42,895 nucleotides of DNA from a bacterium (lineage in GTDB: Bacteria > Ratteibacteria > UBA8468 > B48-G9 > DTJG01), in NCBI GenBank assembly GCA_029552985.1, contig JAKPDB010000030.1, positions 1 to 42,895 on the forward strand, read 5' to 3'. Position 1 is the first letter of the stretch, and every line of letters starts with the position of its first letter. This document shows, piece after piece, positions 1,384-28,435 of this stretch. The notes under the pieces are model-generated. The model was not told the DNA's origin and did no database searches. It worked only from the letters and a program-made list of their open reading frames with translations. Both the position numbers and the translations under genes were made by a program.

Positions 1384-1405
1384 ATTCATTCCTTTTATTG
1401 AACAA

Positions 1406-1690
1406 TATTTTGCTGAAATCCATTGAGTATTTTTCTGTTTTCTTTGCTTTTCCCTGTTTTTTTTCACTTCCACCAGGAAAGACAGAAGCATTATGAACAA
1501 TTAGCGAAGGCGCAGAAACAAAACAAGTAGGAAAGCAGCAGCGTTCTGCCATATCAATGGCAGTTGACTGTCCGAAGCCAGCAGAGTGCAAAGCGCTTAC
1601 GTTGCTGGCAAGTTTCAACTGCGGCAGATTCCCGCGTAGTTTTGTCTGCGCCGTAGAGTGTGTGAATAATGCTTTTGTCTTTCCGTCTCC
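1406..1690 (-). repeat. Dispersed ~285-bp repeat, copy A
   Basis: Read on the minus strand, this segment matches 27551-27841 of the plus strand along its whole length. My hand alignment shows seven substitutions and indels of 4, 1 and 1 nt. It begins at the base after the ferritin stop codon and ends about 20 bp before the 3-hydroxybutyryl-CoA dehydrogenase start. It contains two perfect 7-bp inverted repeats: CTGCCAT/ATGGCAG with a 4-nt loop (1546-1563), and GCCAGCA/TGCTGGC (1577-1583 with 1603-1609). A short reading frame crosses it, but the 1-nt indels between copies change frame, so I treat it as noncoding. No transposase, terminal inverted repeat or clear target duplication was seen. Confidence 0.9.
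1546..1563. other. Perfect hairpin inside repeat copy A
   Basis: CTGCCAT, then four bases, then ATGGCAG form a perfect 7-bp stem. The same hairpin is unchanged at 27683-27700 in copy B. It could be an RNA structure or a protein-binding palindrome; the sequence alone does not decide. Confidence 0.6.
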
Positions 1691-2179
1691 TCATCCTTCT
1701 CTTTTCCCCAGCTCCCTGTCAAGCATTACAATTGCAGGTCCCTGCTCTTTTATCATTTTCAGTGTTTCAAGAATCTGCGAGGCATTTTTCTCTTCTTCAA
1801 CCTGTTCATTCACAAACCATTGAAGCATAACCATAGAAGGATGATCACCTGCCTTTTGAGCAAGGTTGACGAGGTTATTTATCATTGCTGTCACCTTTTT
1901 CTCATGCTCAAGGGTTTTTTCGAATATGTCAGTCACAGAAGAAAAATCAGCAGGTGGCTGGTCAATGGCAAGAAGTTTTATTTCTGCGCCAACATCAACC
2001 ATAAATTCAAAAAATTTCATTGCGTGGCTTACTTCTTCCTTTGCCTGAACTTTTAACCAGTGGGCAATCCCTGGCAGGTTTTTGCTTTCGCAATACGCTG
2101 CCATACTCAGATAAAGATAAGCAGAATACAATTCATTTCTTATCTGCTCATTCATTGCCTTATGCAAATTCTTTTCCAT
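1691..2179 (-). CDS. ftn: Ferritin
   Basis: Non-haem ferritin of 162 residues, forming a 24-mer cage that oxidises Fe(II) and stores Fe(III) in the cytoplasm. The four-helix bundle carries the ferroxidase ligands: Glu16 in NELYSAYLYL, Glu49 and His52 in AKEEVSHAM, the Glu in LEHEKKVT, and the Gln in VNEQVEEE, matching the bacterial FtnA pattern. AAAGGAGG lies just before the ATG, so the start is secure. It lies 12 bp after the phosphoglycerate mutase gene on the same strand. Its stop codon abuts repeat copy A, beyond which is an unrelated CoA-metabolism gene. A second ferritin-family gene sits next to the other repeat copy. Confidence 0.93.
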   Translation of the reverse strand: MEKNLHKAMNEQIRNELYSAYLYLSMAAYCESKNLPGIAHWLKVQAKEEVSHAMKFFEFMVDVGAEIKLLAIDQPPADFSSVTDIFEKTLEHEKKVTAMINNLVNLAQKAGDHPSMVMLQWFVNEQVEEEKNASQILETLKMIKEQGPAIVMLDRELGKREG

Positions 2180-24835: not shown

Positions 24836-26390
24836 AAATATCGATGAAGCAATGGGTCTTGTAAAAGATGGAGATACTATCGCAACAGGTGGATTTGTTG
24901 GGAATTGTCATCCTGAAATGCTTTCCTTTTACCTTGAAAAACGGTTTCTCGAAACAGGGCACCCCTGTAATTTGACAGTTGTATACGCTGCAGGTCAGGG
25001 AGATGGAAAGACACGTGGCATAAATCACTTCGCTCATGAAGGAATGGTGAAACGAGTTATTGGTGGGCACTGGAATCTTGTACCAATGATGGGAAAGCTT
25101 GTCATTGAGAACAAAGTTGAAGCATACAATTTCCCTCAGGGAGTTATATCCCATCTTTATCGTGATATTGCTGCAGGAAAACCAGGAACAATCACCCATG
25201 TAGGCCTATACACATTTGTTGATCCGCGATTTGGAGGCGGCAAACTCAACAGCATCACAAAAGAAGATATTGTGAAACTGATTGAAATTGAAGGAAGACA
25301 ATGGCTTTTTTATAAGGCATTTCCAATTAACGTGGCTTTTATCAGGGGAACAACTGCTGATAAAAACGGTAATATCACGATGGAAAAAGAAACAGGTTCT
25401 CTTGAAATGCTTCCAATGGCAATGGCAGCAAAAAATTCTGGGGGCACTGTTATTGCCCAGGTGGAAAGAATTACAGATGATATTTTCAATCCGTATCTTG
25501 TAAAAGTTCCTGGAATTTTTGTTGACGCTATTGTTGTTGCTGAAAAACAATTTCACCAGCAAACATTTGCTGAAGAATATAATCCATCTTATTCTGGTCA
25601 ACAGAGAATCTCTCTTGAAACACTTTTTGGAAAAATGCCGCTTGATGAAAGAAAAATTATATGCAGAAGGGCTGCAATGGAAATTGAATCTGGAGACATT
25701 GTCAATCTTGGAATTGGAATGCCTGAAGGTATTGCTCTTGTTGCAGCGGAAGAGCAAATACTTGATGAAATTACACTTACAGTTGAAGCAGGCGCAGTGG
25801 GCGGAATACCTGCCAGTGGATTAAGTTTTGGAGCAGCGTACAATCCGGTTGCAATCATTGACCAGCCGTACATGTTTGATTTTTATGATGGTGGTGGGCT
25901 TGACATTGCATTTCTTGGACTTGCCCAGGCAGATACTTACGGTAATGTTAATGTCAGTAAGTTTTCTTCCCGAATTGCTGGAGCAGGTGGTTTCATTAAC
26001 ATTACGCAAAACGCAAAAAAAGTTGTTTATTGTGGAAGTTTTACAGCAGGCGGACTGAAAGTTGAAATTACAGATGGTACTCTGAAAATTCTCAGTGAAG
26101 GAATGCATAAAAAATTTTTGAAACAGGTAGAACAAATTACTTTCAGTTCTGAATACGCAATTAAAAAACATCAAAAAGTTCTGTATGTCACAGAAAGGGC
26201 AGTATTCCAACTCGACCAGGCAGGGCTAATACTAATTGAAATTGCTCCAGGAGTTGATATTACCAACGATGTCATTTCAAAAATGGATCTCGTCCCGAAA
26301 ATTTCAGACAAACTCAAAACAATGTCTGACAAAATTTTTAAAAACGAACCTATGGGAATTAAATACACCATCAAAAGGAAAAAATCATGA
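24813..26390 (+). CDS. Fused class I CoA-transferase (acetate/3-ketoacid type)
   Basis: Moves CoA between short-chain acids, for example acetoacetate, acetate, propionate or butyrate. The 525-residue protein fuses both halves of the heterodimeric enzymes, as in YdiF and propionate CoA-transferase. Motifs include [12 protein letters not shown] in the first half, [26 protein letters not shown], and the catalytic glutamate Glu325 in [11 protein letters not shown]. Start: the ATG at 24813 is preceded by GAGG and fits family ends; the longer frame would add 25 residues overlapping the upstream gene. It begins 23 bp inside that frameshifted small gene and overlaps the thiolase gene by 4 bp, so the three are likely translated together. 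Confidence 0.9.
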
Positions 26391-27550
26391 GAAGGGTTTT
26401 TATCATCAGCGCTGCAAGAACACCGATTGGCGATTTCGGCAAATCCTTAAGTAATGTGTCAGCAATTGAACTTGGTTCTATTGTGATTTCTTCTGTAATA
26501 AAAAGGGCAGGTGTACCTAAACAGAAAATTGACCAGGTCATTATGGGCAATGTTTTGCAGGCAGGACTTGGACAGAATCCTGCAAGACAGGCAGCAATCA
26601 AAGCAGGAATTCCTGTTGATATCCCTGCAACGACAATTAACAAAGTTTGCGGTTCTGGATTAAAGGCAGTATCTCTTGCCGCGTGTACCATTATGGCAGG
26701 TCAGGCAGATATTGTTGTTGCTGGCGGAATGGAAAATATGAGTCAGGCTCCCTACATTCTTGAAAAAGCGCGAAGTGGTTATAAATTAGGACATGGCACA
26801 CTCGTTGATAGTTTAATACACGATGGACTGTGGGACATTTACAATAACTATCATATGGGAATTGCTGGAGAAAATCTTGCTGAAAAATTTTCAATACCAA
26901 GAGATGCTCAGGATGAATTTGCGTATCAGTCCCAGCAAAAATGTAAAGATGCAAAGGGAAAAGGGTGGTTTAAGGAAGAAATTACACCTGTGATTCTTAA
27001 AGACACTGTCTTTGAACAGGATGAACATCCAAGGCCAGACACAACGTTTGAAAAACTTTCAAAATTGAAACCAGCATTCAGGGAAAATGGCACAATTACA
27101 CCAGGAAACGCCTCAGGTATTAATGATGGAGCTGCCGCAGTTGTTATCGCGTCTGAAGAGATCGTTGGAAATTTTTCTCTAAAACCAATGGCAGAAATAG
27201 TTTCTTATGGCGAGGCAGGCATTGAACCTGCTTTGATGGGACTTGGACCAGTACCTGCAACAAAAATTGCTCTTGAAAAAGCAGGAGTCTCCCTGGATGA
27301 TATTGATCTGATAGAAATCAATGAAGCATTTGCTGTTCAGGTACTTGCCGTATGCCAGAAGTTAAAGGTTGATATGAACAAACTCAATGTCAATGGTGGA
27401 GCAATTGCACTGGGACATCCCATTGGTGCAAGTGGAACCAGAATACTTGTGACGCTACTATATGAGATGAAAAGAAGAGATGCTCAATATGGATTGTGTA
27501 CACTCTGTGTAGGTGGAGGAGAAGGAGTGGCGATGGTGGTAAGAAGATAG
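26387..27550 (+). CDS. thlA: Acetyl-CoA acetyltransferase (thiolase)
   Basis: Condenses two acetyl-CoA to acetoacetyl-CoA, or the reverse. The 387-residue protein is a standard biosynthetic-type thiolase with Cys88 in [11 protein letters not shown], His344 in [10 protein letters not shown] and Cys374 in [11 protein letters not shown]. It overlaps the CoA-transferase by ATGA. The two form an acetoacetate module that would be completed by the 3-hydroxybutyryl-CoA dehydrogenase found 25 kb away at the other copy of the repeat. The stop codon is directly followed by repeat copy B. Confidence 0.94.
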
Positions 27551-27841
27551 GGAGATGGACGGAAAGACAAAAGCATTATTCACACACTCTACGGTGCAGA
27601 CAAAACTACGCAGGAATCTGCCGCAGTTGAAACTTGCCAGCAACGTAAGCGCTTTTGCACTCTGCTGGCTTCGGACAGTCAACTGCCATTGATATGGCAG
27701 AACGCTGCTGCTTTCCTGTTTGTTTTGTTTCTGCGCCTTCGCTAATTGTTCATAATGCTTCTGTCTTTCCTGATGGAAGTGGAGAAAAACAGGGAAAAGC
27801 AAAGAAAACAGAAAAATACTCAATGGATTTTCAGCAAAATA
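27551..27841 (+). repeat. Dispersed ~290-bp repeat, copy B
   Basis: This is the same sequence as copy A (1406-1690), in inverted orientation in the window, but in the same orientation relative to the flanking genes. It starts at the base after the thiolase stop. Relative to copy A it carries an extra 4 nt near its start and two 1-nt insertions. The hairpins of copy A are conserved at 27636-27669 and 27683-27700. An ORF from 27655 runs through it but its start and frame are not shared with copy A, so I do not call it a gene. Together with the partial copy that follows it fills most of the 405-bp gap before the next CDS. Confidence 0.9.
27683..27700. other. Perfect hairpin inside repeat copy B
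   Basis: CTGCCAT and ATGGCAG separated by TGAT form a perfect 7-bp stem, identical to the hairpin at 1546-1563. A second imperfect structure with 7-bp arms GCCAGCA and TGCTGGC lies just upstream at 27636-27669. Confidence 0.6.
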
Positions 27842-27842
27842 C

Positions 27843-27908
27843 TATTCACACACTCTACGGCGCAGACAAAACTACGCAGGAATCTGCCGCAGTTGAAACT
27901 TGCCAGCA
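27843..27908 (+). repeat. Partial second copy of the repeat
   Basis: These 66 bp repeat 27577-27642 of copy B with one or two mismatches, starting from TATTCACACACTCTACGG, so the unit recurs head-to-tail with a period of 266 bp. It stops at GCCAGCA, the first arm of the internal hairpin, and the sequence then becomes unrelated and AT-rich. Copy A has no such tandem addition. Confidence 0.9.
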
Positions 27909-27917
27909 GTTAAATAA

Positions 27918-27926
27918 TGGTATAAT
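27918..27926 (+). promoter_or_regulatory. Extended -10 promoter of the ferritin-like gene
   Basis: TGG followed by TATAAT is a perfect extended -10 element, 29 bp before the GTG start. A -35-like TTGCCA (27900-27905) lies in the end of the partial repeat with a short 15-bp spacer; the extended -10 would lessen the need for it. A second TATAAT overlaps at 27926-27931. The gene therefore appears to have its own promoter at the repeat edge. Confidence 0.6.
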
Positions 27927-27955
27927 ATAATAGCGAACTAACAAGGAGGGTGAAA

Positions 27956-28435
27956 GTGGAAAGAAAAGGGATAAAAATTGTTAAGGCAGACATCAAAGAA
28001 ATTGTGCAGCAATTGAATAAGGCTCTTTCTGATGAATGGCTTGCTTATTATCAGTACTGGCTTGGAGAAAAGGTTGTGAAGGGAAAATTCAGGCAAGAGG
28101 TTGCTGCTGAATTGGGTCAGCACGCAGGAGATGAATTGAAACATGCTGGAATGATTGCAGATAGAATTATTCAACTTGGCGGTAGTCCTGTTTTGAAACC
28201 AGAGCAATGGTATAAGTTGACAAACTGCGGTTATGATGCTCCAGAAGACCCAAATGTGATACCCATTCTGAAGCAGAATATTAAAGGTGAACAGTGTGCC
28301 ATAGAAGTTTATCAGAAACTGGCAGAAATGCTTAAGGATAAAGATCCTATTACTTATTTGATGGTTCTTTCAATCCTGAAGGATGAAATCGAGCATGAGG
28401 ATGATTTAATTAATATCCTTGAGGATATTCAATAG
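27956..28435 (+). CDS. Ferritin-like (Dps-like/bacterioferritin-like) protein
   Basis: A 159-residue four-helix-bundle protein. The di-iron ligands are Glu in SDEWLAYYQYW, E-x2-H in DELKHAGMIAD, Glu in IKGEQCAIEVY and E-x2-H in ILKDEIEHEDDL. This spacing fits bacterioferritin and the Dps-like (DPSL) group that protects against peroxide and iron stress. No haem-binding Met is evident. I choose the GTG at 27956 because AAGGAGG ends 6 nt before it; the GTG at 27950 abuts that site. Its promoter lies at the end of a repeat array. Downstream is a REP-like hairpin element. Ferritin itself is 26 kb away beside the other repeat copy. Confidence 0.85.
   Translation: MERKGIKIVKADIKEIVQQLNKALSDEWLAYYQYWLGEKVVKGKFRQEVAAELGQHAGDELKHAGMIADRIIQLGGSPVLKPEQWYKLTNCGYDAPEDPNVIPILKQNIKGEQCAIEVYQKLAEMLKDKDPITYLMVLSILKDEIEHEDDLINILEDIQ

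Follow-up and report, generated by a model that had tools for sequence, protein, structure and literature searches.

A MITE-like intergenic repeat family with a probably selected fold in a candidate bacterial phylum

The window, the whole stretch of DNA analysed here (42,895 nucleotides), is contig C87 of a Ratteibacteria genome (G000; assembly of 178 contigs, 2.2 Mb, 86% complete). It carries two full copies of a repeat, one on each strand, and a 5′-half copy in tandem with the second of them. The genes, the repeat units and the parts of the predicted fold are located as follows.

1405–1690, minus strand: copy 1, full repeat unit; its first base is the one next after the ferritin stop codon; covariance model match 1495–1665, 170 bits
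1476–1684, minus strand: folded core of copy 1, with P1 arms at 1666–1684 and 1476–1494
1691–2179, minus strand: ferritin gene upstream of copy 1 (Pfam PF00210, E 1.6e-45)
26387–27550, plus strand: thiolase gene upstream of copy 2 (Pfam Thiolase_N/C), also the neighbour at the orthologous site in G003, G004 and G005
27551–27841, plus strand: copy 2, full repeat unit; its first base is the one next after the thiolase stop codon; covariance model match 27580–27751, 168 bits
27561–27579, plus strand: 5′ arm of outer stem P1 (GGAAAGACAAAAGCATTAT), predicted fold
27593–27606, plus strand: 5′ arm of helix P3 (GGTGCAGACAAAAC), followed by the conserved loop TAC; near invariant in alignment A1, with compensatory A-U to G-C changes
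27635–27669, plus strand: inner hairpin P6 (TGCCAGCA...TGCTGGC), predicted fold; replaced by other complementary sequences in relatives
27722–27737, plus strand: 3′ arm of helix P3 (GTTTTGT, a 2-nt bulge, CTGCGCC), from the alignment, with compensatory changes
27752–27770, plus strand: 3′ arm of outer stem P1 (ATAATGCTTCTGTCTTTCC), predicted fold
27836–27908, plus strand: 5′-half copy in tandem with copy 2 (95% over 73 nt), terminating within the P6 hairpin
27950–28435, plus strand: ferritin-like gene downstream of copy 2 (Pfam PF00210, E 8.9e-26)

The far end of copy 1 lies ~15–21 nt ahead of the start of a 3-hydroxyacyl-CoA dehydrogenase (HADH) gene, depending on the choice of ATG. The two window copies are inverted repeats that flank a 26-kb block, and each has as neighbours one gene of the ferritin family and one fatty-acid gene (HADH or thiolase). 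Relative G004 has elements at both places that match the window sites, its HADH-site copy being at a contig end.

The second copy matches the first with an E value of 7e-132. Global alignment of 27551–27841 (plus) with 1405–1690 (minus) gives seven substitutions and three internal gaps, with one further end gap, over ~290 bp, which is the divergence counted in the first-pass annotation. What that annotation had said about the placement of the pair is also correct: both copies begin right after a stop codon (the thiolase TAG ends at 27550 and the ferritin TGA occupies 1691–1693 on the minus strand), and both run in the direction of their flanking genes. The two 7-bp stems it had described are present in each, GCCAGCA/TGCTGGC and, as an alternative pairing, CAGTTGA/TCAACTG. 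The 1-nt indels between the copies do shift any frame, and what is conserved is the fold and not a frame; a protein-coding origin was rejected for the latter reason. Elsewhere in the genome there are a third full copy (C4:109–366), a divergent copy on C143 and a 5′-half copy on C20. A match at the end of C45 is the C4 copy and not an extra one, because contigs C4 and C45 overlap.

DNA searches detected relatives within the genus and order. With a covariance model, R1, 10 of the 35 genomes examined from the candidate phylum, spread over several families, have members of the repeat family, and ~350 genomes outside it yield no match (386 genomes in all). The repeat family is restricted to one phylum and encodes no protein. 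There are 1–4 copies per genome in the window's taxonomic family, 8 in G015 and 13–14 in G029 and G033. Genome G011 contains at least 144 conserved 5′ arms, whereas its congener G013 has none. Many G011 contigs terminate inside the repeat, so the true copy number is probably higher than 144. Rfam gave no match above the gathering score in the window and only tRNAs in six relative loci. A phage or plasmid origin was rejected, as searches of 50,697 phage records, of 72,556 plasmid records and of viral contigs gave no match.

The ~210-nt core is predicted to be a single long hairpin with conserved internal loops. All copies follow a common plan, which consists of a variable outer stem P1, an internal loop, a short stem, P3, an internal loop (TAC/TT), P4 and a branched interior. 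The RNA fold of the window copy reaches −85.2 kcal/mol, compared with −54.0 ± 4.0 for shuffles (z −7.9). The letters of the P1 arms change and yet their complementarity persists (GGAAAGAGAACAGAATT in G004, GGAAAGAGGACATGA in G006). P1 alone is little proof of selection, because a palindrome born of terminal repeats starts out complementary; the argument for a selected fold therefore rests on the inner helices and the conserved asymmetric loops. Across the family P3 is formed by CAGACAAAAC paired with GTTTTGTnnCTG, with a 2-nt bulge on the 3′ side, and even this near-invariant helix shows two-sided A-U to G-C changes.

Of the 28 pairs in the window's group, 12 are altered on both sides, and 95.6% of cells are paired. 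The covariation score of this group is 0.350, versus 0.117 for shuffled and at most 0.12 for slid controls, where the shuffle controls are inflated by relatedness but the slid controls retain the relatedness and still fail. The distant family f5 (20 copies, G029 and G033) independently gives 60 double-changed cells versus 17 and a score of 0.265 versus 0.096. At one helix step in G011 the pairs are GC/GC in 42 cases, AT/AT in 23 and mixed in 11 (Fisher P 7e-10, all copies being within one genome). The description of the element as structured is therefore upheld by compensatory changes in independent groups, and what the first-pass annotation had named as support for an RNA or mobile repeat family, multiple copies placed after stop codons with covarying stems, was found. 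L190, L215 and L217 (G029/G033) contain extra hairpins of ~35–65 nt in the apical part of the element, the inserts of L215 and L217 being nearly alike. In L110 and L108 (G029) an internal deletion joins the 5′ arm (ACTACG) to the 3′ outer stem and a short hairpin remains.

Traces of transposition are seen in G009, which belongs to a sister genus. This genome has four near-identical copies at unrelated sites, with ends GGTTCTGTCAAA...TTTGACAGAACC. One copy is at a contig end; of the three that can be assessed, two are flanked by perfect 8-bp target duplications (TTTTCCGA/TTTTCCGA and, where the end repeat carries a 2-nt insertion, TGTGAATG/TGTGAATG) and one by a duplication matching at 7 of 8 positions (TAAAATTT/TCAAATTT). 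The G011 units end in GGTAGTGTCAAA...TTTGACAGAACC, and the 8-mers beside these ends match above the level of shuffled pairs, weakly (81 vs 63.9, P 0.006). In the window copies the outer ends are unlike the terminal repeats of the relatives, only the inner P1 arms match, and there is no clear duplication. The earlier statement that the element has no IS-like terminal repeat is wrong for the family, since relatives carry GGTTCTGTCAAA/TTTGACAGAACC, and it also fails because long outer inverted arms exist in the window (27561–27579 with 27752–27770). A nonautonomous mobile element, one of the possibilities raised at that stage, is borne out by the terminal inverted repeats and 8-bp duplications of G009 and by a copy number that ranges from 0 to at least 144. 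The family has the attributes of a MITE: it is short (~290 bp for the window unit) and lacks a transposase frame, and its relatives have terminal inverted repeats and target duplications. A full-length parent element with a transposase, which had been named as evidence to the contrary, was not found by a search for its ends: in 35 genomes with incomplete assemblies, no pair of GGTTCTGTCAAAR ends (a 13-base pattern) lies at an IS-like distance.

The site after the thiolase gene allows the history of one insertion to be followed. G000 (the window) and G004 have full elements there, G005 has a 5′ half and G003 a 5′ arm that has decayed; in G002 and G007 the downstream gene is a different one and the element is absent. 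In G004 the thiolase gene is followed by an element, a spacer and the start of a second element. The insertion is therefore older than part of the genus, and its fold was kept in some lineages and decayed in others. Because it has decayed in G005 and G003, the element is not essential.

Elements occupy the gap between consecutive genes. The orientation of neighbours was taken from a codon-scored gene caller for the 57 element clusters of G011. Of 53 downstream genes, 52 share the strand of the element (binomial P about 1e-14), as do 37 of 41 upstream genes, and between two co-directional genes the element runs in the gene direction by 34 to 1. In 27 of the 37 cases that could be measured, the 3′ end repeat precedes the start codon by 19–24 nt; the spacing between the stop codon and the 5′ end of the element is looser. 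The claim that the elements are set directly after stop codons is thus accurate for the window copies but incomplete, as in G011 the next gene's start codon is the tighter anchor. All four G009 copies are reversed, yet by eye three of them have a start codon 20–23 nt away; what is anchored may therefore be the site and not the orientation. In G029 and G033 the copies abut stop or start codons in mixed orientation, without bias. The orientation rule is therefore lineage-specific. In two G029 loci, L108 (C7) and L186 (C86), copies directly follow the 3′ ends of apparent tRNA genes and not a protein gene.

The G011 clusters consist of 1–4 units and contain 85 full copies, with only one broken copy away from a contig end. 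In L054, L144, L145 and L167 of this genome, tandem 300-bp units are enclosed within one pair of outer ends. Although the 63 aligned copies are all distinct, 120 of 198 columns are invariant. The variable columns fall into roughly twelve short slots, for the most part in loops and bulges, and each slot shows a small number of alternative words (columns 74–75, for example, are only TC or GG). Linkage in this 63-copy set is strong only within ~10 nt and almost absent beyond 30 nt. In an 82-copy set, association at P ≤ 0.01 (expected for 1%) persists in 6–7% of column pairs at 30–80 nt and in 2–2.5% beyond 80 nt, and the 58 copies whose fetched flanks reach 400 nt or more to either side give the same result. 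We read these mosaics as frequent short-tract exchange among copies under strong fold constraint. Assembly chimeras are an unlikely cause, because linkage is nearly lost at 30–80 nt and the well-flanked copies agree. The earlier suggestion of a recombination-prone spacer is supported for G011, with its tandem units and mosaic copies, but not for the window itself.

Taken together, the family is probably a mobile, MITE-like element with a selected fold. The covariation, the one-sided orientation and the fixed distance to the start codon point to a function at the level of RNA, which we infer to be a role in mRNA: the fold persists as its letters change, and in one relative the orientation is nearly fixed and the spacing is ~22 nt. 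In the mechanism that we propose, a transposase supplied in trans would insert the element into the short gap between a stop codon and a ribosome-binding site. The inserted element would be transcribed as part of the operon mRNA and would fold independently of the adjoining cistrons. A single orientation may be kept because the RNA, once folded, does no harm at this place or is of use. Its most likely role would be in processing or stability between the cistrons, with the ribosome-binding site left clear, either through double-strand cleavage of the hairpin, which would separate the cistrons, or through protection of the upstream 3′ end. Exchange of short segments among copies would keep constrained positions uniform and shuffle free ones. 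The RNA processing step, taken alone, is a tentative part of this scheme, with the balance somewhat against it.

The closest rival is a plain selfish MITE, whose fold is kept only for the transposition machinery (as hairpin ends or single-stranded DNA) and whose orientation and position result from target preference and the purging of harmful insertions. We regard it as unlikely, if still a serious competitor. It accommodates the terminal repeats and 8-bp duplications, the decay at orthologous sites, the absence of an orientation bias in G029 and G033, and the G009 insertions ~20–23 nt ahead of start codons despite the reversal of these copies. It is at odds with conserved asymmetric loops and covariation that lie deep inside the element, far from its ends, and with the 52/53 orientation in G011. 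MITE families usually carry many fragments, and the ratio of 85 full copies to one broken copy not due to a contig end in G011 also speaks against it. An improbable alternative is a cis-regulatory or processed RNA that came first, had no recent mobility and spread by homologous recombination and gene conversion only. The orthologous sites across the genus, the covariation, and the tandem 300-bp units and mosaic copies of G011 would all suit such an RNA. Against it stand the target duplications of G009, where near-identical copies occupy unrelated sites, and the 0 vs 144 copies in the congeners G013 and G011. An integron-like array of recombination sites, suggested by imperfect palindromes with bulged bases and by the tandem runs in G011, is extremely improbable: there are no ORF cassettes but only repeat between the cores of the G011 tandem units, at a fixed 300-bp period, the relatives have 8-bp duplications, and by inspection the stem base has no GTTRRRY-type box.

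A stronger form of the preferred reading, that of a mobile element with a selected fold, is decidedly speculative and on balance doubtful. It holds that the repeats are a mobile structured RNA family in mRNA orientation. Its target, or the place where it is kept, would be the upstream border of the ribosome-binding region, with the element end ~22 nt ahead of the start codon, and within one genome its 144 or more copies would evolve as a population that recombines freely. If this is true, the element would be a portable intercistronic regulator, and it may spread by a step that depends on RNA or on single strands. It has long been an open question whether the MITE-like repeats of bacteria serve as regulatory RNA or are junk. 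Since each genome supplies hundreds of natural variants whose free and constrained positions have been mapped, this question becomes testable. The phylum is uncultured, and the literature on Omnitrophota/Ratteibacteria repeats yielded nothing relevant and no described repeat family.

Several known systems resemble the family in part. ERIC and RU-1 of Enterobacteriaceae and Vibrionaceae are likewise intergenic, palindromic, MITE-like and multi-copy, and number from tens to hundreds of copies (PMC10969869). ERIC is transcribed, and its orientation is described as crucial for its effect on mRNA stability in a passage of PMC2229807 that cites De Gregorio 2005. ERIC differs in being 127 bp long and unrelated in sequence, whereas the window family combines a ~210-nt core and 8-bp duplications with a branched conserved interior, keeps a fixed distance from the start codon and has tandem units in one relative; nor is the enterobacterial and vibrio distribution of ERIC-type repeats seen here, as matches in the 386 genomes are confined to one candidate phylum. 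The bcr1–bcr3 repeats of the Bacillus cereus group are MITE-like and occur in UTRs and in the intergenic regions of operons; roughly half of all bcr copies are transcribed, only bcr3 correlates with decay rate, and functional RNA was predicted for bcr10 and bcr18 (PMC3446304). They belong to other organisms and have another sequence. NEMIS/Correia elements of Neisseria are MITEs whose transcript stem-loop is a proposed target of RNase III cleavage (PMC2229807), but are 107 or 155 bp long and of different sequence. The BrickBuilt MITE of Porphyromonas gingivalis, always intergenic, encloses tandem units with a leader and a tail in one pair of MITE ends (PMC4596501); its 19 copies contain 23-bp units without spacers, unlike the structured 300-bp units of G011. 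REPINs are hairpin-forming, non-autonomous and persist as a within-genome sequence population (PMC3116915), but are REP doublets tied to RAYT transposases. The window family matches none of the tested known families by sequence, phylum or fold.

Three separate 5′-half copies (27836–27908; L007 454–502; L010 on G005 C66) break off at one common point in the inner P6 hairpin, within its 5′ strand (...CTTGCCAGCA or CTTGCCTTC), as though this hairpin brought deletion or copying to a halt. The half copy in the window ends in TTGCCA(GCA) and a TATAAT follows 15 nt after TTGCCA (27908–27932), just ahead of the ferritin-like gene. Given this spacing, part of a promoter may come from the truncated repeat.
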